From positions 1 through 23,417 of IMG/VR virus record IMGVR_UViG_3300009285_000692: DNA of 23,417 nucleotides; one strand, 5' to 3'. The notes below the pieces were generated by a model. The model worked only from the letters and a program-made list of their open reading frames with translations, ran no database searches and was not told the DNA's origin. The DNA comes from a virus. Below, in pieces: positions 2,176-23,303 of this stretch (its first letter is position 1; each line of letters starts with the position of its first letter). Position numbers and translations under genes: made by a program.

Positions 2176-3558
2176 ATGGATCAATTAAAGAAACTTCGCG
2201 AGAAGAAAGAGGCAGTAGTGGCCGAAATGGACGCACTCTGTCAGGCCGCGACTGACGGCATAATGTCAGAAGAGGCTCAGAAAAAGTTCGATAGTTTGAA
2301 AGCTGAAAGCGACCTGATTGCCAAGAATATAGCCAATTTAGAGCGCGTTCTTGACGAAAAGGCCTCTGCGGAGCGTATCCCGCAAGCACCGCCCGCCGCT
2401 ATTATAGCAGGCCAGCCTACCGCAAAGAGTACTCGGTTTACCGTTCCTGCCGAGGCTAAGAAGTGGTCAACTGGTTTGCGGGCATTTAAGGGTACTGATG
2501 GAGCAGAGCGTGCTTATGCTTCGGGCCAGTGGCTTGCCGCTGCGTTTGGCAGTGATAGTGCTAAGCAGTGGTGTAGGGATCACGGCTTGCAAATTCAATC
2601 AGTACATCAAGGCGGCGTAAATACGACCGGTGGGTACTTAGTTCCAGAGCCGTTGTCAACGGCGATTATCGAGCTGGTTATGCAGTATGGCGTATTTCGT
2701 CGTAATGCAGGCCGTGTACCGATGACAAGCGATACCATGATTATACCGCGGCGTAGCGGTGGTCTTACCGGCTACTTTGTCGGCGAGGGCGATGCAATCA
2801 CATCGAGCACCAAGTCTTGGGATAACGTAAAACTTATCACAAAAGATTATGGTGTTACTACTCGTATTAGTAACCAGCTTGCCTCCGATGCGATAATCAG
2901 CGTAATGGACGACCTTGCCACTGAAATAGCACGAGTTTTCGCACAAAACGAAGACGAATGCGGTTTTAATGGTTCTGGCACAAGCACTTATGGCGGCATT
3001 ACTGGTTTGCAAACAAGATTGAAGACGGTGGCATGGACAGCGCCTTCGGTCAATACTGGTGCTGGCGCGGTCGAGTGGGGCACAGGTACAGATCACAGCA
3101 ATATCACCTCAGCAAATCTTACATCGTTAATGGCGTTATTGCCGACGTATGCCCGATTTGGTGCGAAGTGGTTCTGTTCGCCTGCGTTCTATGATGCCGT
3201 TATGACAAGGCTCGCATTGGCGCAAGGTGGTTCGACTGCGACCGAAATGGTTAATGGAATTTTGCAATATAAATTCCTTGGCTATCCGGTCGAACTGGTC
3301 GAGGTAATGCCGACGACCGGCACAGACCAGTTGTTTAGTTGCTATTTTGGCAATTTGCAAATGGCAGCTAAATTCGGCGACCGGCAGCAGCTTGCAATCG
3401 CCTCAAGCGACAGCGCGACTATCGGCGGCTATTCCGTTTTTGAACGGAATGAAATCGCTCTCCGTGGCACAGAGAGATTCGATATAAACGTTCACGATGT
3501 AGGTACGTCATCTGCACCCGGCCCAATAGTTGGCCTGATGTGTTATGACGCCGCGTAA
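2176..3558 (+). CDS. HK97-fold major capsid protein
   Basis: This subunit forms the phage head. The first ~65 of 460 residues are a charged helical coiled-coil (DQLKKLREKKEAVVAEMDAL onward) that matches the scaffold-like delta domain of HK97-family capsid precursors. A low-complexity linker follows (about 68-95). The fold itself begins around GGYLVPEP and continues through GYFVGEGDAI, VTTRISNQL and a C-terminal RGTERFDINVHD. The delta domain is probably removed by the S49 protease encoded at 9163. An AAAAGGA site precedes the ATG. The gene lies right after terL and before the portal, whereas most HK97-like phages use the order terL-portal-protease-capsid. The family assignment is strong; the cleavage position is not visible. 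Confidence 0.93.
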   Translation: MDQLKKLREKKEAVVAEMDALCQAATDGIMSEEAQKKFDSLKAESDLIAKNIANLERVLDEKASAERIPQAPPAAIIAGQPTAKSTRFTVPAEAKKWSTGLRAFKGTDGAERAYASGQWLAAAFGSDSAKQWCRDHGLQIQSVHQGGVNTTGGYLVPEPLSTAIIELVMQYGVFRRNAGRVPMTSDTMIIPRRSGGLTGYFVGEGDAITSSTKSWDNVKLITKDYGVTTRISNQLASDAIISVMDDLATEIARVFAQNEDECGFNGSGTSTYGGITGLQTRLKTVAWTAPSVNTGAGAVEWGTGTDHSNITSANLTSLMALLPTYARFGAKWFCSPAFYDAVMTRLALAQGGSTATEMVNGILQYKFLGYPVELVEVMPTTGTDQLFSCYFGNLQMAAKFGDRQQLAIASSDSATIGGYSVFERNEIALRGTERFDINVHDVGTSSAPGPIVGLMCYDAA

Positions 3559-3595: not shown

Positions 3596-4135
3596 ATGAT
3601 TCCACAGAATGATCATGGTATAGTTGTAATGACGCCGATTCTTCAAACGGCGGCATCAACACACAATTTCAGTTTTTCTAAGCTGGACGCAAACGGCCAA
3701 CCGTATGCGCAGGCGAATATCCTTTTTAATATGGGCACGGTTTCGACTAATGCCGACGACCTTTCAAATATAAAGGTCTATGAGAGTGATACGGTAACAA
3801 CTCCGACAAGTATGACGCAGATCGTAGCCTTTTCCATTACAAATGGAACGGCCACTGATGCGACTCATGCTAACGCTTGGACATTTGGCGCGTCTGGTGC
3901 TGCACTCGGCGGTGTTGTCGAGTTGCAAATGGATTTGCGAAAACGCAAGAAGTATATCGGCGTGTATGTTCTCGCACCCGCTGCTTCTAACGTTGTAACA
4001 TTCAGTGCAATGGCGATTCTTAGCCGTGGTGCTGAGTCGAGAGATTCGCAATCGCAGGCTAACCAGTATGGTTCTGTTTATGGCAACCTTGCTGCTACGA
4101 ATGCACGGGGCAACATAATGAGAGTTATTGGGTAA
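3596..4135 (+). CDS. Beta-rich protein, candidate capsid accessory/decoration protein
   Basis: I do not recognise a family. The 179-aa product is rich in Thr, Ser, Ala and short hydrophobic strands, and has no signal peptide, membrane segment or Cys cluster. It ends in a polar Ser/Gln/Asn-rich stretch (ESRDSQSQANQYGS) followed by RGNIMRVIG. It starts 37 nt after the capsid stop, with a clear AAGGAGC ribosome site, so it is likely co-expressed with the capsid protein. Position and composition suggest a capsid-binding or decoration protein. That is inference from context only. Confidence 0.75.
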   Translation: MIPQNDHGIVVMTPILQTAASTHNFSFSKLDANGQPYAQANILFNMGTVSTNADDLSNIKVYESDTVTTPTSMTQIVAFSITNGTATDATHANAWTFGASGAALGGVVELQMDLRKRKKYIGVYVLAPAASNVVTFSAMAILSRGAESRDSQSQANQYGSVYGNLAATNARGNIMRVIG

Positions 4136-4148
4136 GTTGTTTTCATTT

Positions 4149-4188
4149 CCTCCCCTTGGCGGTGGTTTTTGTGGCCGTCAGGGGGAGG
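4149..4188 (+). repeat. Long GC-rich stem-loop between capsid-block genes
   Basis: The arm at 4149-4162 pairs with the arm at 4175-4188 over 14 bp, including two G-U pairs in the + RNA, around a 12-nt T-rich loop. No T-run follows, so this is not a classic terminator. It may act as an mRNA processing or stability element that separates capsid expression from the downstream enzyme gene. It also covers a TTG (4169) that could be mistaken for the next gene's start. Confidence 0.6.
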
Positions 4189-4228
4189 GGTGAAAGTTTA
4201 TAAAAAGGAAATGAAAGGAAAAAATGAA

Positions 4229-6055
4229 ATGAGGCTTAATTTAGGAAGCGGCGAGTTTCCGCTCGATGGTTACGAAAATTTAGACAAAAGTAATGGCAAG
4301 GAAGTTTATCCGTTGGTTGCATACGCCGATAATTCGGTCGATGAGATCAGAGCGTCGCACATTCTTGAGCATTTTCCGCAGGCGCAGGTAATGGAAGTGC
4401 TTAGCCATTGGATTTCAAAACTTAAACAGGGCGGCATTTTAAAACTCGCCGTGCCTGATTTCGGTAGGATTTGTCAAGGGTATGTAAAAGGCGAAAATTT
4501 AAATTATGGCGGGTACATTGTCGGCGGTCAATCGAATGAAGATGATTTTCATAAATCTATTTTTGACAGATCATGCCTTATAAGAGTATTTGAGACGCTT
4601 GGCCTTGGCGATGTAAAAGACTGGGTATCAGAAGTAAAAGATTGTGCCAGTTATCCGATAAGTCTCAATTTGCAGGGTACTAAGCTCGGTATCCCCTCGT
4701 TGGTTAAAAATATAGGATACATAGATAAGGCATATATTCCAGCACTTACTGAATTCTCAAAAAGAGCGAAAACATATTATTCGCAAAATGGCGAAGATGG
4801 TATTTTGGAAGCAATTTTTGAAAAAATTGGTATTGAAAATAAATGGTGTCTTGAGGTCGGCGCGGCTGATGGTATTTTATTTTCAAACACCCGTCATTTT
4901 GTTGAGCAAGGATGGAATGCCTTGCTTATTGAAAGAGACGATGAACAATTCGATAGGCTCGTAAATAATATTTTGCCATACAAGAAAAAGGTATTTGTTT
5001 CAAAAGAGAATGTCGGTAATGAAAAAGGACTTGATTCATTGCTTGCCGAATTTAATGTCCCTAAAGATATCGACCTCGTGTGCATTGATGTTGATGGTCA
5101 GGACTGGCATATCTGGAATCAAATGCTTGAGTATAAGCCGAGAGTTATTGTTTGTGAATACGATCCGAAGCGTAAGGATGATGATTTTATTCCGATTATT
5201 GGCGGCGAGGGTCAGGCAGGAATGAGAACGACTGGCTGGCTTGCATCTGGAAAGAATTATCATAACTTAATAGTTACCGAATACAATATTATTGCAATTC
5301 GAGACGATGTAGCACTAAAACTACTTCCAGTAGTACCTAAAAAAGACATTAAAATTGCTGCGGTAATGTCAATGCCTCGTGTTGCGTTTACTGATAATAT
5401 GTTTTCGTCAATGTCGGCGTTATTGCCGTTAGGAATTTCACTCGAAAGAGGTAGTGGCGTATTTTGGGGTCAGATTTTAACTCGGCTAATGGAAAGTCAT
5501 CTTAATGATGGTACTGAGTTTATTATTACGCTTGACTATGATACGTATTTTACAAAAAACCAAGTTGTTAGATTGCTTCAAATGATGCAGGAGCATCCAG
5601 AGGCGGATGCAATTATCCCGATGCAAATGAAGCGTGAGTGTGATTATCCGCTTATTGGTAAGTTAAATGAGGAGCAAAAACCTATTATATCGCTTCCTGT
5701 AACTGCCTTTCAGTGCGATTTAATGCCGATGACTACAGGACACTTTGGACTTACTATTTTCAGGGTTTCAGCATTAAATAAAATGAAAAAGCCTTGGTTT
5801 TTGCCACACCCAGATCCGGTTGGTGGATGGGACGAAGGTAGAATGGATGAGGATATTCATTTTTGGCATACCTTTGCAGACAGCGGTCTTCAATCGTTTC
5901 TTGCTCCAAAAATCAGATTGCCGCATTTACAAATGATGGCAACGATTCCAGGCCGACTTGAAGAAGCGTTTAAGCCTCAGCATTATTACATTACTGATTT
6001 GATAAAGAATGGTTTGCCGGAATGGTGTGAGCCGAAGGTGGAGTTTTTAAAATGA
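4229..6055 (+). CDS. Three-domain protein: SAM methyltransferase + FkbM-like methyltransferase + GT-A-like glycosyltransferase
   Basis: The 608-aa product reads as three enzyme-like units. Residues 1-165 form a class I methyltransferase: LNLGSGEFPLDGYENLD at the SAM site, SHILEHF, and KQGGILKLAVPDF. Residues ~183-365 resemble the FkbM family: YYSQNGEDGILEAIF, LEVGAADG, ALLIERD, DLVCIDVDGQDW. Residues ~373-600 look like a GT-A glycosyltransferase: TLDYDTYF as a DxD-type metal site near 435-441, and WDEGRMDEDIHFWH near 534-546. The start at 4229 is chosen for its AAAGGAA site; ATG 4211 is a possible alternative. Its stop overlaps the next ATG. Such enzymes usually build or methylate surface sugars. 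Inside a head gene block it might glycosylate virion proteins or alter the host envelope. Domain calls are good; the substrate is unknown. Confidence 0.85.
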   Translation: MRLNLGSGEFPLDGYENLDKSNGKEVYPLVAYADNSVDEIRASHILEHFPQAQVMEVLSHWISKLKQGGILKLAVPDFGRICQGYVKGENLNYGGYIVGGQSNEDDFHKSIFDRSCLIRVFETLGLGDVKDWVSEVKDCASYPISLNLQGTKLGIPSLVKNIGYIDKAYIPALTEFSKRAKTYYSQNGEDGILEAIFEKIGIENKWCLEVGAADGILFSNTRHFVEQGWNALLIERDDEQFDRLVNNILPYKKKVFVSKENVGNEKGLDSLLAEFNVPKDIDLVCIDVDGQDWHIWNQMLEYKPRVIVCEYDPKRKDDDFIPIIGGEGQAGMRTTGWLASGKNYHNLIVTEYNIIAIRDDVALKLLPVVPKKDIKIAAVMSMPRVAFTDNMFSSMSALLPLGISLERGSGVFWGQILTRLMESHLNDGTEFIITLDYDTYFTKNQVVRLLQMMQEHPEADAIIPMQMKRECDYPLIGKLNEEQKPIISLPVTAFQCDLMPMTTGHFGLTIFRVSALNKMKKPWFLPHPDPVGGWDEGRMDEDIHFWHTFADSGLQSFLAPKIRLPHLQMMATIPGRLEEAFKPQHYYITDLIKNGLPEWCEPKVEFLK

Positions 6056-6204
6056 AAATAAGATTATTAAAACCTTATTGTGCTTTTGCTAAAAACCAGA
6101 TTTGGGATTGTCCGCATGTTATTGCTCCGATTCTGATAGCACGAGGAATTGCTGAAAAAGTTATAGAAGAAATAAAAATAGTAAAAAAGAAAAGGAATAA
6201 ATAA
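6052..6204 (+). CDS. Small phage protein (50 aa)
   Basis: This 50-residue ORF overlaps its upstream neighbour by ATGA and its downstream neighbour by TAATG, so it is almost certainly translated. It begins MKIRLLKPYCAF and contains DCPHVIAPILIARGIAEKV, ending in a Lys-rich tail. The central pattern, hydrophobic with LIxRGIAE, is what I recall from tiny proteins near phage capsid and connector genes, whose role is not established. No membrane segment is evident. Confidence 0.7.
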   Translation: MKIRLLKPYCAFAKNQIWDCPHVIAPILIARGIAEKVIEEIKIVKKKRNK

Positions 6205-6725
6205 TGGCTTCTCAATCAAGAATGGAAAGTGATTTTTTTGTAGCGGGTAATATTTCCGCAAATACATTTACGCTACCCGCCGGAACGGTAACTGATAATG
6301 CCGTACTTGCGGCTACTAATATTGCCGCAACAAAACTTGAGCATCAGCACGAGATAATATTTGCTCAAGCTAATACTGCATCGGCAAGCCAAACCCAGAT
6401 TGTTCACAGAGTACATGGTGCGACTGGCGAGGTAATAGCCGTTAAGGCCGGTTCTATTGTAAAGTGCGTAAGCGACGCCAGTATTACTATTGATATGGTC
6501 AAGTGTAATTCTGGCGGAACTACCTCTGTGCTGACGGGAGTAATTACACTTAATAGTAGTAGTACAAACTATGTTCCTGTTGCTGGCACAGTTGTTTCGA
6601 GCGGTGTTGAAGATTTGGTGGCTGAGGATTTATTAAAAGTTGTACTTACCGCAAGCGCAGGCACTGGCGGGACTGTTGCAACTGGCGTCTTTGCCTCTTT
6701 AATAGTTAGAGAAAAGGCAAGTTAA
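6204..6725 (+). CDS. Beta-rich structural protein, possible head fibre or decoration protein
   Basis: The family is unknown. The 173 residues are small, Ala/Thr/Ser/Val-rich and look all-beta, with an N-terminal stretch (FFVAGNISANTFTLPAGTVTDNAVLAATNIAATKLEHQH) of the kind seen where capsid-attached or trimeric fibre proteins anchor. It has no Cys-rich site or signal peptide (one Cys pair lies near 93-106). The ATG at 6204 overlaps the previous TAA, with AAAGGAA just upstream. Placement between capsid and connector genes suggests a virion component. That is inference. Confidence 0.72.
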   Translation: MASQSRMESDFFVAGNISANTFTLPAGTVTDNAVLAATNIAATKLEHQHEIIFAQANTASASQTQIVHRVHGATGEVIAVKAGSIVKCVSDASITIDMVKCNSGGTTSVLTGVITLNSSSTNYVPVAGTVVSSGVEDLVAEDLLKVVLTASAGTGGTVATGVFASLIVREKAS

Positions 6726-6726
6726 T

Positions 6727-7524
6727 ATGGATTATCGAATTACTACAACAAGTCCACCGCAGAGTGAGCCGATAAGTTTGACTGAGGCCAAACTGCATCT
6801 TCGTGTTGATGGTTCTACAGACGATACGCTTATTACTTCATTGATTAAGGCCGCAAGAGAATATTGCGAATCATTTCAGGGCAGAACGTATATAGCGACT
6901 ACGTTTCAAATGAAGATGGATTCGTGGCCGGACGAATTAAAGATGCCGAATGCGCCGTTGTGGTCTGTCGATAGTATTACCTATGTTGATACCGGCGGAA
7001 CTACTCAAACGTGTACGAGTTCTATTTATACGATTGATACGGTAGCCGATCCAGGCATTTTATATTTAGACTATCAGCAGGTTTGGCCGAGCATACGCGG
7101 TACACATAACGATATTACTATAAATTTTAACGCCGGATATTCAGCGTCATTTACTGCCGCCGATACCGATATATGTACTTGTTCTGCGAGAACATTTACG
7201 GATGCTACAAGAGTTAGATTATATAATTCAGGCGGTGCGTTGCCTGCCGGATTATCGACAGATACCGATTATTATACAAGAGATATCTCAGGTTCGACTT
7301 TCAAATTTTACACGGCAGCAACCGGCGGCACAGCGGTAAATATTACCGATACCGGTACTGGTACGCATTATATCGGGTGTGTTCCTGCGCCGATAATTGC
7401 GGCGATGAAAATGCTTATCGGCCATTTGTACGAACATCGAGAGGCTGTAACAGAAGTTGCATTACAAGAAGTACCCTTGGCTATCAAACATCTTTTATGG
7501 ATGGATAGATTAACGGGATTTTAA
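6727..7524 (+). CDS. Head-tail connector, gp6/phiE125 gp8-like, with inserted domain
   Basis: This protein forms the ring under the portal that links head to tail. Residues 15-52 (PISLTEAKLHLRVDGSTDD ... LIKAAREYCESFQGRT) and the C-terminal part (VPAPIIAAMKMLIGHLYEHREAV ... IKHLLWMDRL, 219-262) are classic for the family. About 75 residues (~143-217) are inserted between the usual FNAGYSA and VPAPI segments. The insert contains VRLYNSGGALPAGLSTDTDYY and a Gly/Thr-rich end, a beta-type unit that recurs in phage tail and structural proteins. The usual family length is near 190 aa, and this one is 265. It starts one base after the previous stop. The family call is strong. Confidence 0.88.
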   Translation: MDYRITTTSPPQSEPISLTEAKLHLRVDGSTDDTLITSLIKAAREYCESFQGRTYIATTFQMKMDSWPDELKMPNAPLWSVDSITYVDTGGTTQTCTSSIYTIDTVADPGILYLDYQQVWPSIRGTHNDITINFNAGYSASFTAADTDICTCSARTFTDATRVRLYNSGGALPAGLSTDTDYYTRDISGSTFKFYTAATGGTAVNITDTGTGTHYIGCVPAPIIAAMKMLIGHLYEHREAVTEVALQEVPLAIKHLLWMDRLTGF

Positions 7525-7526
7525 AG

Positions 7527-9179
7527 ATGAAAATAATTGATTCTTTTGCAAACTGGATTATTCGCAGAGCATCGACTAATACTAATCCTGAGCAGTGGTT
7601 CATAGATTATTTTAAAGGTGGTCAGCCGACCAAAGCTGGTGTTACTGTCAATAATGATACAGCCTTGCAACTATCGACTTATTTTGCCTGTGTGAGAAAT
7701 ATTTCCGAGGATATTGCGAAACTTCCACTTAAAACATATAAACCGCAAAAACCGCAAGGTAAAGAACTACTTACAGATCATCCTCTTTATAAGATTCTGC
7801 ATGATGAAGCAAATTCTGAAATGTCGGCTATGACTTTCAGGGAGGTTCTTACCGCGCACTGCTTAAATTGGGGTAATGGTTATGCGTATATTGAGCGCGG
7901 GAGATATAATGATATTAAGGCATTATGGCCCCTTTTGCCTGATAAGGTCAAGCCGTATCGGGATGAAAAAACAAGGGCGATAGTTTACGAACTGTCTGAC
8001 GATAAGGGCAATAAAGAAGATTTTCCGGCTTTTGAGATTCTGCATATTCCCGGACTTGGTTACGATGGTATTATGGGTTATAACGTTGCACGTTATGCTC
8101 GTGAATCGTTAGGGAGTATTACAGCCGCTGAGCAGCATGGCGCGTTTTTCTTTTCTAACGGCTCAAACGCAAACGGTATTCTTGAAATACCGGCGGCAAT
8201 GAATGAGAAGGCAAGAAATAATCTTAAAGAATCATTCCATAAAGAATATGCAGGGGTAAGGAATAGTGGGAAGACAATAGTTCTTGAGGAAGGATGCAAA
8301 TTTAATAAAACATCTATTCCACCAGAAGAAGCACAGTTTCTTGAAACTCGGCAATTTGCCGTGCCTGAAATATGCCGCTGGTTCAGGATGCCGCCGAATA
8401 AAGTAGCCGATATGACGCGAGCGCAAGGGTGGTCAACGCTCGAACAGACAAATACCGATTATGTTACTGATACATTAATGCCTTGGTTTGTTCGATGGGA
8501 GCAGGAAATTTACCGTAAGCTCTTAACAAAAGACGAAAAGAAACAGGGTATATTTGTACGGCATTTGGCAAATGCTTTATTGCGGGGAGATATCGCAGCA
8601 AGGACTACATCATATACGGCGGGTCGTAATGGTGGATGGTTCTGTGCTGATGATATCCGCGAGATGGAAGACCTAAACCCATTGCCTGATGGTAAGGGTC
8701 AAATATATTTGCAGCCGTTAAATATGGTAGAGGCTGGCACTGAGCCTGAGCCGCAGCAATCATTTGAACCAATCCCGCAAGAGCCTGAACAGAAAAAAGA
8801 AGATGATACCGCATCTAAAGCGGTAATGTTTAATGTTATTATGCCGAAGACTGAAATTGAAAAAACCGTTGATGCTAAGACGATTGCTTTTGCCGATGAT
8901 TGTGCCGAACGAATCTCAAGCGCCGAGATAAGAGAAATCGAAAAGCATATCAGTAAATCCGAAGATAAAGAGGGATTCAATAAATGGCTGAATGAATTTT
9001 ACGAAAAGCATGAGAGATATTGTATAAGAACTCTTATGCCGCTTGTCGGCCTAAAAGACGCTTCTATTCTTGCGATGTCTTTAATTGCCGACTATAGATT
9101 TGAAGGCGCAGATTTTGAGCAGTTCAAAAAAGAGGTAGTATTAAAGCACAAGGAATTTCTCCATGATATCCTTAAATAA
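7527..9179 (+). CDS. Portal protein (HK97 family)
   Basis: The portal is the dodecameric DNA gate at the head vertex; it binds terminase and connector. Diagnostic stretches in the 550-aa protein are LSTYFACVRNISEDIAKLPL (about 49-68), FREVLTAHCLNWGNGYAYIERG (104-125) and the later VPEICRWFRMPPNKVADMT. After the conserved core, a Pro/Glu/Gln linker (about 410-430) leads to a charged, helical C-terminal extension of ~120 residues of unknown role. Only a weak ribosome site precedes the ATG, so coupling to the connector gene (2 nt upstream) is likely. The last 17 nt overlap the protease gene. Confidence 0.95.
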   Translation: MKIIDSFANWIIRRASTNTNPEQWFIDYFKGGQPTKAGVTVNNDTALQLSTYFACVRNISEDIAKLPLKTYKPQKPQGKELLTDHPLYKILHDEANSEMSAMTFREVLTAHCLNWGNGYAYIERGRYNDIKALWPLLPDKVKPYRDEKTRAIVYELSDDKGNKEDFPAFEILHIPGLGYDGIMGYNVARYARESLGSITAAEQHGAFFFSNGSNANGILEIPAAMNEKARNNLKESFHKEYAGVRNSGKTIVLEEGCKFNKTSIPPEEAQFLETRQFAVPEICRWFRMPPNKVADMTRAQGWSTLEQTNTDYVTDTLMPWFVRWEQEIYRKLLTKDEKKQGIFVRHLANALLRGDIAARTTSYTAGRNGGWFCADDIREMEDLNPLPDGKGQIYLQPLNMVEAGTEPEPQQSFEPIPQEPEQKKEDDTASKAVMFNVIMPKTEIEKTVDAKTIAFADDCAERISSAEIREIEKHISKSEDKEGFNKWLNEFYEKHERYCIRTLMPLVGLKDASILAMSLIADYRFEGADFEQFKKEVVLKHKEFLHDILK

Positions 9180-10038
9180 TTTAATGTCAATGTTTGCATG
9201 TCATCCGTGGGCGATTCGAGCCGAGAAATTACAGGCGATGATTGATATGTCAACTTCAAATATTGTTGCGGCCATTGAACGTCCCAAAGCTAATCAATCA
9301 ACAGTGCAATCTGTAGCGTATCTACCGATTCGCGGGATAATTGACCAGCACGACAGTTGGTTTTTGCAGGCGTTTGGCGGAACATCTACAGAAGAGTTTG
9401 GCATGATGTTTGATAAATTTATTGCAGACCCGTCTATCGGAGCGATTGTATTTGATATAGACAGTCCAGGCGGATCGGTGTACGGCGTGCAGGAATTATC
9501 CGATAAGATTTATAATGCAAGAGGCAAAAAGCCTATCATTGCGATTTCTAATTCTCTTATGGCCTCTGCTGCTTATTGGATAGGTTCTGCTGCCGATGAA
9601 ATTTATATTACCCCGTCAGGTGAGGCAGGTTCTATTGGCGTTATAGCAGTTCATGCTGATTATTCTCAATTTGAAAAAGGCATGGGCGTCAAGACTACTA
9701 TTATAAAGGCTGGTAAATATAAGGGTGAAGGCAATCCGCATGAGCCTTTGTCTGATTCCGCTCATGCTGATATTCAAAAAAGAATTGATGAATATTACGA
9801 TGCTTTTGTTGGTGCGGTTGCTCGCAATCGCAGAGTGAGTAGGAGCAAGGTTCTCTCGGATTTCGGGCAAGGCAGAGTGTTTGGTGCTAACGAAGCAAAG
9901 ATGTCGGGTATGGCCGACGGCGTTATGACGGCAGAGCATTTGTTTAGAACGGTTCAAAGTCGTAAACAGTTGCCTAAAAAGGCCGCTGAGGAATTTAATA
10001 GGAACAAAATGGCCGTTGAAATGGCAAGGGTTAAATAA
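9163..10038 (+). CDS. S49-family (SppA/ClpP-fold) prohead protease
   Basis: Probably the maturation protease that trims the capsid delta domain inside the procapsid. The 291-aa protein has the S49 features VFDIDSPGGSVYGV (about 96-109), the nucleophile motif NSLMASAAYW with Ser135, SGEAGSIGV (152-160) and a Lys-rich IKAGKYKGEG (181-190) expected to supply the general base. There is no signal peptide, in line with a phage rather than a cell-envelope role. It starts inside the portal gene with AAGGAA upstream. The placement is normal relative to the portal, but the capsid gene that would usually follow is 6 kb upstream. Confidence 0.92.
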   Translation: MISLNNLMSMFACHPWAIRAEKLQAMIDMSTSNIVAAIERPKANQSTVQSVAYLPIRGIIDQHDSWFLQAFGGTSTEEFGMMFDKFIADPSIGAIVFDIDSPGGSVYGVQELSDKIYNARGKKPIIAISNSLMASAAYWIGSAADEIYITPSGEAGSIGVIAVHADYSQFEKGMGVKTTIIKAGKYKGEGNPHEPLSDSAHADIQKRIDEYYDAFVGAVARNRRVSRSKVLSDFGQGRVFGANEAKMSGMADGVMTAEHLFRTVQSRKQLPKKAAEEFNRNKMAVEMARVK

Positions 10039-10367: not shown

Positions 10368-10970
10368 ATGAAAAGGTTTATTTCGATTGTAGTTTTGGTT
10401 TCAATGTTGTTTGGCACGTATATTATTACTTTGCCCGCAGCGTATACTCCTGCCGGTACATTGGCTGCGTATAAGGTTTTCAGGGCAACGTCAGCAACGG
10501 ATGATACAGGTCTTGCTGCCGGTGGTGCGGTATGGTCGTCGATATCAAGCATTGCGTATCCTGTTAGAAGTACAGAATCACGAGAGCAAAAAGGACTTGT
10601 GGCGATTCGCTTTAAGGGAACGGGGGCAACGGCAACTACAATGAATTGGGTTCTTTATGCTGTTAAAGAAAGTGGTGAACCCGCTCAGTTTGTTGCTTAT
10701 GGCACGGCGGCAATAGGTGCGACAGAAACCGGCGAGACCGATGAGTATTATGCCAATACAATAACGATAACAGTTGAGCATTGGCTATCCTCGCTAACTA
10801 ATGTGGCTGGTTATCAATATAACCTTGGCACTGGCGCGGTATCGAGCGGCGGAATAGCCTTGATTGCTTTTGATACTTTTGAGCATACCTATCTTATTTT
10901 GAAGATGTCAAGAGGAACGTGTACGACATGTGGTGCTGATTTTACAACTATACCGACGTTTAATAATTGA
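10368..10970 (+). CDS. Beta-rich protein with N-terminal signal-like segment
   Basis: Unrecognised 200-aa protein. Residues 1-27 (MKRFISIVVLVSMLFGTYIITLPAA) look like a Sec signal peptide or membrane anchor, which is unusual amid head-tail genes. The rest is Ala/Gly/Thr-rich and beta-like. A CxxC (RGTCTTCGADF) occurs near the C-terminus. GAAAGGTGAT precedes the ATG. The gene ends 8 nt before the next signal-peptide gene, so the two secreted-looking proteins probably belong together. They could be envelope-exposed or lipid-associated accessory proteins, or virion proteins with accidental hydrophobic starts. Function cannot be assigned. Confidence 0.72.
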   Translation: MKRFISIVVLVSMLFGTYIITLPAAYTPAGTLAAYKVFRATSATDDTGLAAGGAVWSSISSIAYPVRSTESREQKGLVAIRFKGTGATATTMNWVLYAVKESGEPAQFVAYGTAAIGATETGETDEYYANTITITVEHWLSSLTNVAGYQYNLGTGAVSSGGIALIAFDTFEHTYLILKMSRGTCTTCGADFTTIPTFNN

Positions 10971-10978
10971 GAGATATT

Positions 10979-12256
10979 ATGCGATGGCTAATAATTTTAA
11001 TAATAGCTTGTTCATGTTTCGGCTCGCTTCGCAGCGATTTGAACGGCGATGGAATAGTAAATTTTCAGGATTATGCTATCGCTTCACAAAATGGATGGAA
11101 CGTACAGGTACGCTCAGTAATAAGTCAATGGTTGGAGACAGATATGGCGAATAATTATCTTTCATTTAATGGAGCATCATCGTATGTGACATTGGCGGAT
11201 TCTTCCGCTCTCAATGTTGGAACGGGCGATTTCAGCGTTAGCATAGCCGTCTATCCTGTCTCGCTGGCCGGTGCGGTTACTTATACTGTTGTTGATTTTT
11301 TCGATGAGGATACAAACAGAGGATGGAAAATAACGCTTGACGGATTAACTCAAAAGGCGACATTGCTTGTGTACGATACGGCGGTAACTAAATCGGTGGT
11401 GTCGGCTGCACTTACAACGGATACATGGAATTTTATAGCATTTACAATAGACCGCGATGGCAATGGCATACCGTATCTTGCAAGCGCGGCAGGAACTCCC
11501 ATAAGTGTGGCAACGGCATCTGGGACACTGTCAAATCCGGCCTTACCAAAACAATTTGGCGCTTTACGGAATGACAACACTGGCCTTTATAGTGATTATC
11601 ATAATGGGTATATAGACGACTTTCGTTTGTATGCCTCGGTATTAACTACTGGCGAAATTGCCGAGATTTATAATCTTGGGGTTGGCAGAAAGTATGCCGC
11701 GCTATCTACTGGCAAAGTGGCAGCAGCTGCGTTCCAGTTTGATGAAGGAGTGGGTTCTTATACGCTTGATAGTATTGGCGGGTTGCTTGGGACTTTAACA
11801 GGTTGCACGTGGGCAAGCGGCGGCGTGCAGTTTGCAACAACAACCAGTATTGAACAATCAATTTATAGCCTGTTGACAAACGATGCTTCGGTTACGGCAT
11901 TAACATCAACAAGGATTTATCCGGCCATTGTGCCGGAGCAGGCAGCAATGCCCGCGATAACGTATCAGCAGATTAGCGGTGATAGGGAGCATGACTTTGA
12001 CGACGCTATAGGTTATGCGACAGGGAGGTTTCAGATAAATTGCTGGGATGATAGTTATGGTGGGGCAAGAGTACTGGCAAATGCTGTACGGCAGGTATTA
12101 GATGGCTTCACTGGCACATCTTATGGTTTGTATGTTCATCATATATTTTTAATGGATGAGGGCGATATGCCGGAGATAGAGCCGGAATTAAATAGTACAA
12201 GAATCCGCTATGGTAAGCGGCTTGATTTTGAAATTACATGGGCAGAGTCAATTTAA
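10979..12256 (+). CDS. Signal peptide + dockerin-like + LamG-like + DUF3168 (tail terminator) fusion
   Basis: Four parts are visible in 425 aa. Residues 1-16 form a hydrophobic signal-like segment. Residues 19-40 are a dockerin-type EF-hand loop (DLNGDGIVNFQDY). Residues ~56-235 are a LamG/concanavalin-like beta sandwich (YLSFNGASSYVTLADSS, WNFIAFTIDRDG, GYIDDFRLYASVLTTGEIAEIYNLG). Residues 290-423 are a DUF3168 tail-completion domain (IEQSIYSLLTNDASVTAL, TRIYPAIVPEQAAMPAITYQ, GRFQINCWDDSYGGARVLANAV). DUF3168 alone is usually ~130 aa and closes the tail tube end at the head. The fusion to a glycan-binding-like sandwich and a secretion signal is odd. ATG 10979 has GAGAG upstream, and a TTG at 10967 is less likely. 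An internal start at 11144 may make a shorter form. Confidence 0.88.
   Translation: MRWLIILIIACSCFGSLRSDLNGDGIVNFQDYAIASQNGWNVQVRSVISQWLETDMANNYLSFNGASSYVTLADSSALNVGTGDFSVSIAVYPVSLAGAVTYTVVDFFDEDTNRGWKITLDGLTQKATLLVYDTAVTKSVVSAALTTDTWNFIAFTIDRDGNGIPYLASAAGTPISVATASGTLSNPALPKQFGALRNDNTGLYSDYHNGYIDDFRLYASVLTTGEIAEIYNLGVGRKYAALSTGKVAAAAFQFDEGVGSYTLDSIGGLLGTLTGCTWASGGVQFATTTSIEQSIYSLLTNDASVTALTSTRIYPAIVPEQAAMPAITYQQISGDREHDFDDAIGYATGRFQINCWDDSYGGARVLANAVRQVLDGFTGTSYGLYVHHIFLMDEGDMPEIEPELNSTRIRYGKRLDFEITWAESI
11134..11146 (+). promoter_or_regulatory. Internal Shine-Dalgarno and ATG within the DUF3168 fusion gene
   Basis: GGAG at 11134-11137 lies 6 nt before an in-frame ATG at 11144, exactly where the LamG-like domain begins (MANNYLSFNG). 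Initiation here would give a 370-aa LamG-DUF3168 protein without the signal peptide and dockerin. A cytoplasmic tail protein needs such a form. The match is seen in the sequence; its use is inference. Confidence 0.5.
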
Positions 12257-19500: not shown

Positions 19501-19965
19501 TTATTTTCCTTCTCCAATTTCAAATTTTAGTTTTCCCTGTAGGGGATGCTTATCCACTCGTGGCCTGCTCGGTACGCTCCAGGAGCCGCCGCGACATTCG
19601 CCCACACATGTCCAGCCAGCCGCCGTAATTGATGTTCCGCTTTCACTATTGAGAATATAAGTAACGCATTTTCGATAACCCAATTCTCTGGCTATGCGCC
19701 AACTTGCGGCATAGAGTTTTGAGCAAGCATTTTTCGTGCCATCTGTACAAAGTCGTGTAACTTCAAGAGTCCAGCCATCATCTATCCGTCTTGATACCGG
19801 CCTGCCAACAATAGCCACACCTACAATTTTTTCGCCATCGGCAAGCCCGATAGAAAACTTATGTCCAACAACTTTGCCATGATGCCTGTGATGCTGTGCC
19901 ACAAAGGCATTGGCTTCATCAAGGGCAATCGGAACTATTTCAAGTTTTCTTTTATCTGTGTCCAT
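19501..19965 (-). CDS. XF1762-family GNAT-like phage protein
   Basis: The 154-aa protein carries LEIVPIALDEANAFVAQHHRHHGKVVGHKFSIGL, GVAIVGRPVSRRIDDGWTLEVTRLCTDGTKNACSKLY, and YILNSESGTSITAAGWTCVGE, the conserved layout of the XF1762 family, which is thought to have a GNAT-type acetyltransferase fold. The HHRHHG motif near the N-terminus is characteristic. It starts 5 nt after its upstream neighbour's stop with no clear ribosome site, so coupling is likely. Its substrate is unknown. Confidence 0.85.
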   Translation of the reverse strand: MDTDKRKLEIVPIALDEANAFVAQHHRHHGKVVGHKFSIGLADGEKIVGVAIVGRPVSRRIDDGWTLEVTRLCTDGTKNACSKLYAASWRIARELGYRKCVTYILNSESGTSITAAGWTCVGECRGGSWSVPSRPRVDKHPLQGKLKFEIGEGK

Positions 19966-21551: not shown

Positions 21552-22061
21552 CTAAATTAAGTTCAATCTGGCGAAGTCTCCGAACAATTCGGTCGCTTTC
21601 GCGTTATAGGCAAGTCCTGCTTCTTTTTCTATTTTAAAAGTTCCCATTCGGTAACAAACTCCATCCTTACGCAGACAGACAGACCAACCCTTATTATTCC
21701 AATAAACGCCCTTGTATAATGATTTACTTCTTGCTCTTTTTGGACGGTTATAGCTGTTCTGCAATCTTGTACAGTTTCTTAAATTGCACTTTCTATTGTC
21801 TAATCCATGCCCGTTTTTGTGGTCAACTTGGTCTTTGCTTTTAGTTTTGGCAATCTCTCTGCCCATCTGAACCGTAACCTGCCTTCCTTTTGTTCGTCCG
21901 GCACGGCGGGCGTAGAAAGTTCTCACTCCAACCATAGTCTGCCATTTCCATTGACTCAGCCATTCGTAATCTTCGGTATCAACAATGGCGTGTTTCCCCT
22001 TGGTCAGCGGAATTAAACTAATCGACAATAATGGACATTTAGTGTGTTTGCAGGGATACAT
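21552..22061 (-). CDS. HNH endonuclease with AP2-like DNA-binding domain
   Basis: This is a probable free-standing homing endonuclease. In the 169-aa protein the first part (LIPLTKGKHAIVDTEDYEWLSQWKW) is the usual N-terminus of phage HNH-AP2 proteins. The HNH core is QVDHKNGHGLDNRKCNLRNCT (about 78-98), with D80-H81, N89 and NLR. The AP2-like end is YKGVYWNNKGWSV and LAYNAKATELFGDFARLN (116-167). I chose ATG 22061 for its GGAG site, 6 nt upstream. A longer start at 22187 would fall at the predicted transcription start. It has its own consensus promoter and a structured leader, unlike its neighbours, as expected of a mobile gene. Confidence 0.88.
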   Translation of the reverse strand: MYPCKHTKCPLLSISLIPLTKGKHAIVDTEDYEWLSQWKWQTMVGVRTFYARRAGRTKGRQVTVQMGREIAKTKSKDQVDHKNGHGLDNRKCNLRNCTRLQNSYNRPKRARSKSLYKGVYWNNKGWSVCLRKDGVCYRMGTFKIEKEAGLAYNAKATELFGDFARLNLI

Positions 22062-22079
22062 AAGTTCTCCAAAATAAAA

Positions 22080-22185
22080 GCTGTTCGGGATGAAGTGAAA
22101 CGACATGGCCGTATTATTACGGTTTGAGGTTTGCGCCCGAACAGCCAATTTTTGTATTATTTTTTCCATGTCATTCACTTCGTCC
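22080..22185 (-). ncRNA. Interleaved inverted repeats in the HNH leader: candidate RNA pseudoknot
   Basis: In the - strand RNA, arm A (22185-22166) can pair with A' (22108-22088) over ~18 bp with one mismatch and one small internal loop. Arm B (22145-22136, CCCGAACAGC on the + strand) pairs perfectly with B' (22089-22080, GCTGTTCGGG) over 10 bp. The order is A-B-A'-B', so the two helices cross. A third small hairpin (CCGTA/TACGG, 22109-22122) lies between B and A'. A' and B' adjoin (sharing ~2 nt), so they could stack. The leader ends just upstream of the GGAG and ATG. It may be a pseudoknot or a two-state switch. Confidence 0.5.
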
Positions 22186-22188
22186 ATT

Positions 22189-22679: not shown

Positions 22680-23303
22680 TTACTTAAATAAAACATTGCC
22701 CGCTTCGCTGTGTTGTGGCTGGTTCTCATCGGGACGGCGGCAGCCACCAGCGAAGCCCGTATCCGTCCTGAACATCTCCAACGTAGTTACCACAGGCAAT
22801 GTTAGTCCAAGCCCAGACTTGTATAATGCCTGAGCATTTTCTTTTCCGTAAGCAATAAGTATCGAGGCTGCACCGCACCCGCCGCCAGTGGGACTTATAA
22901 GGCCATCTGCATAATATGAGGCTTGCTCAGCAGGTATAAACTGAATACGCCCTTTGATAAAACAGATAGCATCTGCGGCAGGAACATAATCGTGAAACCA
23001 TCGCGTATCAGTTCGTGCGAAAACAAGGGCTATTCCGCCGCCATGATGCCGTGAAAGTTTGTCCAACCAGCATGGCGTATCTTTTCCATAAGGGGGATTT
23101 AGCCAAATATTGCCAAGCCATTCTTTGAAAAAACCATCATCTTCAACTGTGTAATGATGCTTTGCCGGAATCCACCTTGCAATATCTGCGCCCGGACTGC
23201 ACGGGTCTAAATCAAATTCAATTGCCAACGCTTTGAAGATTTCTCGTGGCGTGTACCATTCCTTTGATTCGTTATAAGTGCTTTCGTGTGCAAAACCTCT
23301 CAT
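22680..23303 (-). CDS. Phage DNA N6-adenine methyltransferase (Dam family)
   Basis: The 207-aa enzyme has the phage Dam-type layout: EWYTPREIFKAL (15-26), FDLDPCSPGADIAR (30-43), the catalytic NPPY motif in IWLNPPYGKDTPCWL (67-80), then ALVFARTDTRWFHD and the C-terminal ICFIKGRIQFIP. It transfers a methyl group from SAM to the N6 of adenine, probably shielding phage DNA from host restriction. It has an AGGA ribosome site and is the most upstream well-supported gene of the - strand cassette in view. Confidence 0.93.
   Translation of the reverse strand: MRGFAHESTYNESKEWYTPREIFKALAIEFDLDPCSPGADIARWIPAKHHYTVEDDGFFKEWLGNIWLNPPYGKDTPCWLDKLSRHHGGGIALVFARTDTRWFHDYVPAADAICFIKGRIQFIPAEQASYYADGLISPTGGGCGAASILIAYGKENAQALYKSGLGLTLPVVTTLEMFRTDTGFAGGCRRPDENQPQHSEAGNVLFK

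Follow-up and report, generated by a model that had tools for sequence, protein, structure and literature searches.

A three-domain methyltransferase–glycosyltransferase gene in the head module of an uncultivated HK97-type phage lineage, and its probable role in virion glycosylation

The locus and its neighbourhood

The stretch of DNA analysed here (23,417 nucleotides, referred to below as the window) carries among its head genes an intact open reading frame whose product appears to combine two methyltransferase (MT) domains, D1 and D2, the second being FkbM-like, with a glycosyltransferase (GT) domain, D3. The features of the locus are collected in Table 1. The gene order is TerL, capsid, decoration-like protein, fusion gene, 50-residue ORF, 173-residue protein, connector, portal (profile match 9e-99) and S49 protease. 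The initial annotation had described a 608-residue ORF at 4229-6055, lying between capsid-accessory and connector genes and overlapping the next gene by ATGA, and in all of this it proved correct: the frame is intact, profile matches of the neighbours establish the position, and the overlapping gene is the 50-residue ORF. A comparable small ORF follows the enzyme in locus L001 as well (related loci are cited here by L numbers). Three in-frame starts lie upstream of 4229 (ATG at 4211, GTG at 4190 and TTG at 4169), the use of which would add at most 20 residues.

Table 1 Features of the fusion gene and of the genes around it in the window; domain limits and functions are predicted from sequence and models.
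Feature	Position	Strand	Remarks
HK97-type major capsid protein	2176..3558	+	PF05065 Phage_capsid 2e-36, phrog_10 1e-55; possible acceptor
Decoration-like protein, 179 aa, predicted beta-sandwich	3596..4135	+	Possible acceptor; AlphaFold pLDDT 83
AAAGGA, ribosome-binding-like	4214..4219	+	9 bases 5' of ATG 4229; read from sequence
MT-FkbM-GT fusion gene	4229..6055	+	Intact 608-codon ORF, start possibly up to 20 codons further upstream
Domain 1 (D1), class I SAM methyltransferase, residues 1-165	4229..4723	+	LNLGSG, SHILEHF motifs; PHROG 6636 methyltransferase 1.9e-8
Domain 2 (D2), FkbM-like SAM methyltransferase, residues 183-365	4775..5323	+	LEVGAADG, DVDGQDW; PF05050 E 0.008, TIGR01444 E 0.009, both sub-threshold
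Domain 3 (D3), GT-A glycosyltransferase, residues 373-608	5345..6052	+	DYD 436-438, HFG 505-507, DED 540-542; PF13632 E 2e-4, sub-threshold
50-aa ORF	6052..6204	+	Its ATG overlaps the fusion-gene TGA (ATGA)
173-aa head-slot protein, no assigned function	6204..6725	+	Homologues immediately 3' of the enzyme in many relatives
gp6-like head-tail connector	6727..7524	+	PF05135 2e-9, phrog_40 9e-27; downstream boundary of the slot

A full-length homologue of the fusion protein (61% identity) was found with an identical gene order around it; given this, the invariance of the catalytic positions among 44 aligned relatives and a model with pLDDT 91 (see below), the reading frame is not a chance one. 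In the window (7527-10038, plus strand), as in L001, portal and protease lie 3' of the connector; in most relatives both are found 5' of the capsid. Further along the same strand (10967-12256) is a protein with a tail-completion gp17 domain behind a laminin-G/ConA-like lectin domain, carrying a dockerin-like DLNGDGIVNFQDYAIASQNG near its N-terminus, while a sub-threshold match to an HNH_3-like endonuclease occurs on the minus strand (21552-22187). Scans of the whole window for tRNAs and Rfam families found nothing.

Domain assignment and predicted structure

Scanned against Pfam one by one, as had been suggested at the outset, the three segments each point to a named family (Methyltransf_11, E 0.03; Methyltransf_21/FkbM, E 0.008; Glyco_trans_2_3, E 2e-4), but all of these matches fall under the curated cut-offs. 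For D2 the scores reach 16.7 of the required 22.7 bits for PF05050 and 16.4 of 37.7 bits for TIGR01444, for which reason the domain is termed only “FkbM-like” here; for D3 they reach 21.7 of 27 bits for PF13632 and 14.9 of 23.3 bits for PF00535, so that it is filed by fold and motif and placed in neither family. The fusion protein has one further PHROG match (phrog_1574, 2e-6). D2 also attracts matches to SDR-family proteins, which are read as cross-matches between Rossmann folds, since the scores stay far short of the SDR cut-offs and D2 retains its SAM motif unbroken.

An AlphaFold2 model, computed from a 49-row alignment, has a mean pLDDT of 91.1 and a pTM of 0.57, i.e. three domains are confidently modelled, while at this pTM their mutual arrangement is uncertain. 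Searching the PDB with the whole model, Foldseek returned STIV A197 (TMt 0.73), LH3, B4GALNT1 and SpsA together with many O-methyltransferases; among the 50 BFVD matches listed there was no full-length counterpart (TMq no higher than 0.29). D3 has a GT-A fold (both in the AlphaFold model and by Foldseek) and carries a DxD motif together with conserved acidic positions, and the class I SAM methyltransferase assignment is borne out by a Rossmann-type fold with a glycine-rich SAM motif, methyl transfer being the predicted activity. The fusion protein contains no strongly hydrophobic stretch.

In D3, residues D436, D438, H505, D540, D542 and H566, and in D1 residues G6, H44, E47 and H48, are identical in 44 of 44 aligned sequences, and in D2 the same is true of E209, G211, D214, G215, E235, D287 and D289 (14 of 14). 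These positions are unchanged although overall identity to the window protein drops to about 37-45%, which speaks for a functional enzyme in each of the three domains. Taken together, the confident model, the Foldseek matches and the invariant motifs support the assignment made in the initial annotation (SAM methyltransferase, FkbM-like domain, GT-A domain), where the profiles by themselves are weak.

Relatives and domain architectures

A scan of viral contigs with the single protein as query yielded one related locus, while a scan with a two-row alignment yielded 246 relatives; the 80 highest-ranking ones were examined. Among these 80 and the window, 64 ORFs have just D1 and D3, 11 have the D1-D2-D3 order of the window and 6 have D2-D1-D3; in 5 loci D2 is a separate neighbouring ORF, and in L015 it is D1 that stands apart, from a D2-D3 protein. 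Going by these architectures, the core enzyme is an MT-GT protein, of which the window protein is an extended form with the FkbM-like domain as an add-on. On a tree of D3, the D2 labels need 13 changes; for the label “no D2”, well supported branches make 6 changes unavoidable. This implies repeated gain, loss or rearrangement of the FkbM-like unit, with the gene itself staying in the same place. Moreover, separate D2 ORFs are accompanied by a GT domain in 28 of 28 cases in the capsid-anchored set (see below); that D2 may be fused in either order, or be a separate neighbour, yet always occurs with a GT domain is a sign of linked function. Five of the enzyme-anchored loci (L006, L045 and L057-L059) have two enzyme copies each.

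Outside uncultivated viruses the picture is quite different. Three different tblastn queries against 50,697 annotated phage records recovered no complete fusion, only partial, single-domain matches; D3 had no match there at E 0.01, in a collection that may not include each named mycobacteriophage. The initial annotation was aware of no described phage protein with this combination of units in this place, and had recommended looking for it in other phage head operons. As regards described phages it was right, while for uncultivated viruses the supposed rarity was wrong: the fusion is present in many contigs. The 84,980 cellular genomes yielded a single complete MT-GT fusion (L157), whose contig also bears terminase, portal and tail genes; L158 and L159, in phage head modules inside a genome bin of Phycisphaerales, each have a copy of the GT alone, and the remaining matches were stand-alone methyltransferases, among them a D1 relative (L162) surrounded by apparent surface-sugar genes. 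These figures come from a pattern scan built on a nine-row alignment and two short peptide patterns, which would miss divergent copies. The placement of L158 and L159 is a hint that Phycisphaerales (Planctomycetota) are hosts of the lineage. The open-access literature contains, as far as could be found, no description of the MT-GT head-slot fusion family, nor of FkbM enzymes or sulfotransferases in phage heads, which is not proof of absence; the family of fused enzymes, which extends across an uncultivated lineage, is apparently undescribed, virion glycosylation itself being already known.

Position in the head module and co-inheritance with the capsid

The association with the head genes was also approached from the capsid, in scans that are independent of the enzyme as query. 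In a first capsid-anchored set the enzyme was present in 42 of 59 loci, and in an enlarged set it was present in 132 of 189 informative loci and absent from 57; the capsids in the query alignments came mostly from enzyme-bearing loci and each scan was limited to its 80 best hits, for which reasons this fraction is not a census. The GT domain is visible in 129 of the 132 enzyme-bearing loci, the other three showing D1 only. Wherever capsid, GT and connector could all be placed, the GT lay between the other two (94/94), so that in these loci, as in the window, the GT gene is inside the structural operon. Exceptions are seen in the enzyme-anchored set, where L079 and L081 have the enzyme just 3' of the connector. 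In L010/L011 and L052 the terminase, portal or capsid belongs to other PHROG families, and the gene is again near the major head protein. One enzyme-free locus (L115, 3562-4308) has a MptE-like protein in the slot, by a sub-threshold match.

Presence of the enzyme requires 9 changes on the capsid tree, compared with 48 in shuffles: the enzyme follows the capsid tree and is co-inherited with the capsid.

Candidate acceptors and companion genes

The decoration protein and the capsid are the first candidates for the acceptor of a transferred sugar. Of 189 informative loci, 187 have a homologue of the decoration protein directly 3' of the capsid, whether the enzyme is present or absent; compared with the PDB, the model of the window's protein gave only weak matches. 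Its Ser/Thr content is higher in enzyme-bearing loci before kinship is controlled for, but as proof of an acceptor this enrichment had to be discarded, since it disappears once phylogeny is controlled for (7 independent pairs, sign test median p 0.25), and the window's own decoration protein has no such enrichment.

In relatives, other genes of glycan type occur in the head module. Sulfotransferases are found there (PF00685 in L007, L016, L023 and L057, others by similarity), as are cytidylyltransferases (PF01467 in L016, L042, L048 and L049, the last with a sub-threshold GHMP-kinase match at its C-terminus; PF02348 in L216), an additional methyltransferase (L043), a GDP-mannose 4,6-dehydratase between portal and capsid (L038) and a cytidylyltransferase between terminase and portal (L157). 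Sulfotransferases accompany 12 of 132 enzyme-bearing loci and none of 57 others (p 0.019, a value that ignores kinship and is of supporting use only). The PF02348 kind of cytidylyltransferase, to which CMP-sugar synthetases belong, occupies the head slot in L216 (7072-8379), L222 and L241, and suggests another donor sugar in those phages. The slot of the window has none of these companions and no sugar-activation gene, so that its donor sugar must come from the host or from an unseen gene.

Proposed function and alternatives

The near-fixed position of the enzyme in the head module makes it probable that these phages put modified sugars on their own particles, and the fusion protein is probably a soluble enzyme of virion glycosylation, attaching a sugar to a virion protein and methylating that sugar. 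The GT-A domain would take a sugar from a nucleotide-sugar donor and attach it to a head protein, either at a residue or on a growing glycan; the two SAM-dependent domains would methylate the transferred sugar, and the fusion would hold successive steps together. Catalytic activity in this sense, along with the nature of the sugar, donor and acceptor, is something we infer from motifs, fold and genomic setting, as are the order of the steps and methylation of the sugar instead of a protein side chain; by analogy with chlorovirus A064R, sugar transfer followed by methylation of that sugar is most likely. Of the two possibilities raised in the initial annotation, modification of virion proteins is thus the one favoured by the head slot (94/94 testable loci), with the acceptor a candidate only.

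The other, namely that the enzyme alters the surface polysaccharide of the host during infection (e.g. to block superinfection or change serotype), draws on the fact that surface polysaccharide clusters are the usual setting of FkbM and GT2-like enzymes, and the L162 relative of D1 does sit among apparent surface-sugar genes. It is nevertheless unlikely, in view of a head-module place that is near-fixed in diverse phages and recurs in unrelated head modules, and of a protein lacking any strongly hydrophobic stretch; nor did the slots show a recognisable membrane-anchored partner of gtrABC type. A passenger (moron) that is dispensable, or a decayed enzyme, in either case without a role in the particle, would account for the 57 of 189 informative loci that lack the gene, in most of which capsid, decoration and connector genes are directly consecutive. 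Against this, the enzyme tracks the capsid tree and its catalytic residues are invariant. Nor is the protein common in host polysaccharide clusters, from which it might only have been captured here, the single full copy that the pattern scan of 84,980 cellular genomes picked up being on the phage-like contig; this explanation is accordingly given very little credence.

Lower still is the probability attached to the idea that the GT glycosylates modified phage DNA, in the manner of phage DNA glycosyltransferases. The window does encode a Dam-like adenine methyltransferase (22680-23303, minus strand, 3e-18) and a Mom-like protein by a sub-threshold match (19501-19965, minus strand), which make DNA modification plausible in this phage, but these genes are on the other strand and the fusion gene sits in the late head block. 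In addition, the sulfotransferases and GDP-mannose dehydratase of relatives better fit a protein glycan, and among the fold matches listed there is no DNA glycosyltransferase.

It may be, though the odds are put somewhat below even, that a widespread uncultivated HK97-type lineage inherits in its head module a dedicated cassette whose enzymes activate, transfer and methylate sugars and in certain members also sulfate them, so that the particle carries a coat of methylated or sulfated glycans; this would be the phage counterpart of the machinery that glycosylates chlorovirus capsids. One gene slot, in well over 100 uncultivated viral contigs, connects glycosyl transfer, methylation and sulfotransfer with the capsid. 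Were the proposal true, glycosylated phages could be recognised in metagenomes by a sequence marker, and the natural series of fusions, with domains in both orders, would help in studying the assembly of glycan pathways.

Comparison with known systems

With the FkbM-family and Methyltransf_11 methyltransferases of sugar clusters, the MT domains of the window share SAM-binding motifs and sub-threshold profile matches; they differ in lying under the family cut-offs and in being fused to a GT in phages. The GT-A enzyme A197 (PDB 2c0n) is essential to STIV, the major coat protein of which is glycosylated (PMC10551542). Its GT-A fold is similar to that in the window model, but it is a single-domain protein from an archaeal virus with another capsid fold, and the identity is 13%.

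In tailed phages virion glycosylation is documented for few groups, chiefly mycobacteriophages. Mycobacteriophage Corndog has an O-methyltransferase and glycosyltransferases between portal and protease, for which capsid modification was proposed (PMC4351075), and Freeman et al. (2023), as represented in papers that cite them (PMC12619734, PMC12691614), described glycans on mycobacteriophage capsid and tail tube. Common to these phages and the window is the presence of GT and methyltransferase genes within the structural operon of a tailed phage, whereas in mycobacteriophages the genes are separate and elsewhere in the operon, and D3 of the window has no detectable similarity in the collection of 50,697 records.

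A further comparable system is A064R of chlorovirus PBCV-1, a three-domain polypeptide biochemically verified to carry out GT and methyltransferase steps in making the capsid-protein glycan (PMC7019647). In sequence, its PDB chains gave no match to the window protein at E 1, and the two differ in that A064R has the order GT-GT-methyltransferase and belongs to a eukaryotic algal virus, while the window protein has the order MT-MT-GT and is encoded in an HK97-type phage head operon. What they have in common is that each is one viral polypeptide of three domains, uniting glycosyltransferase with methyltransferase.
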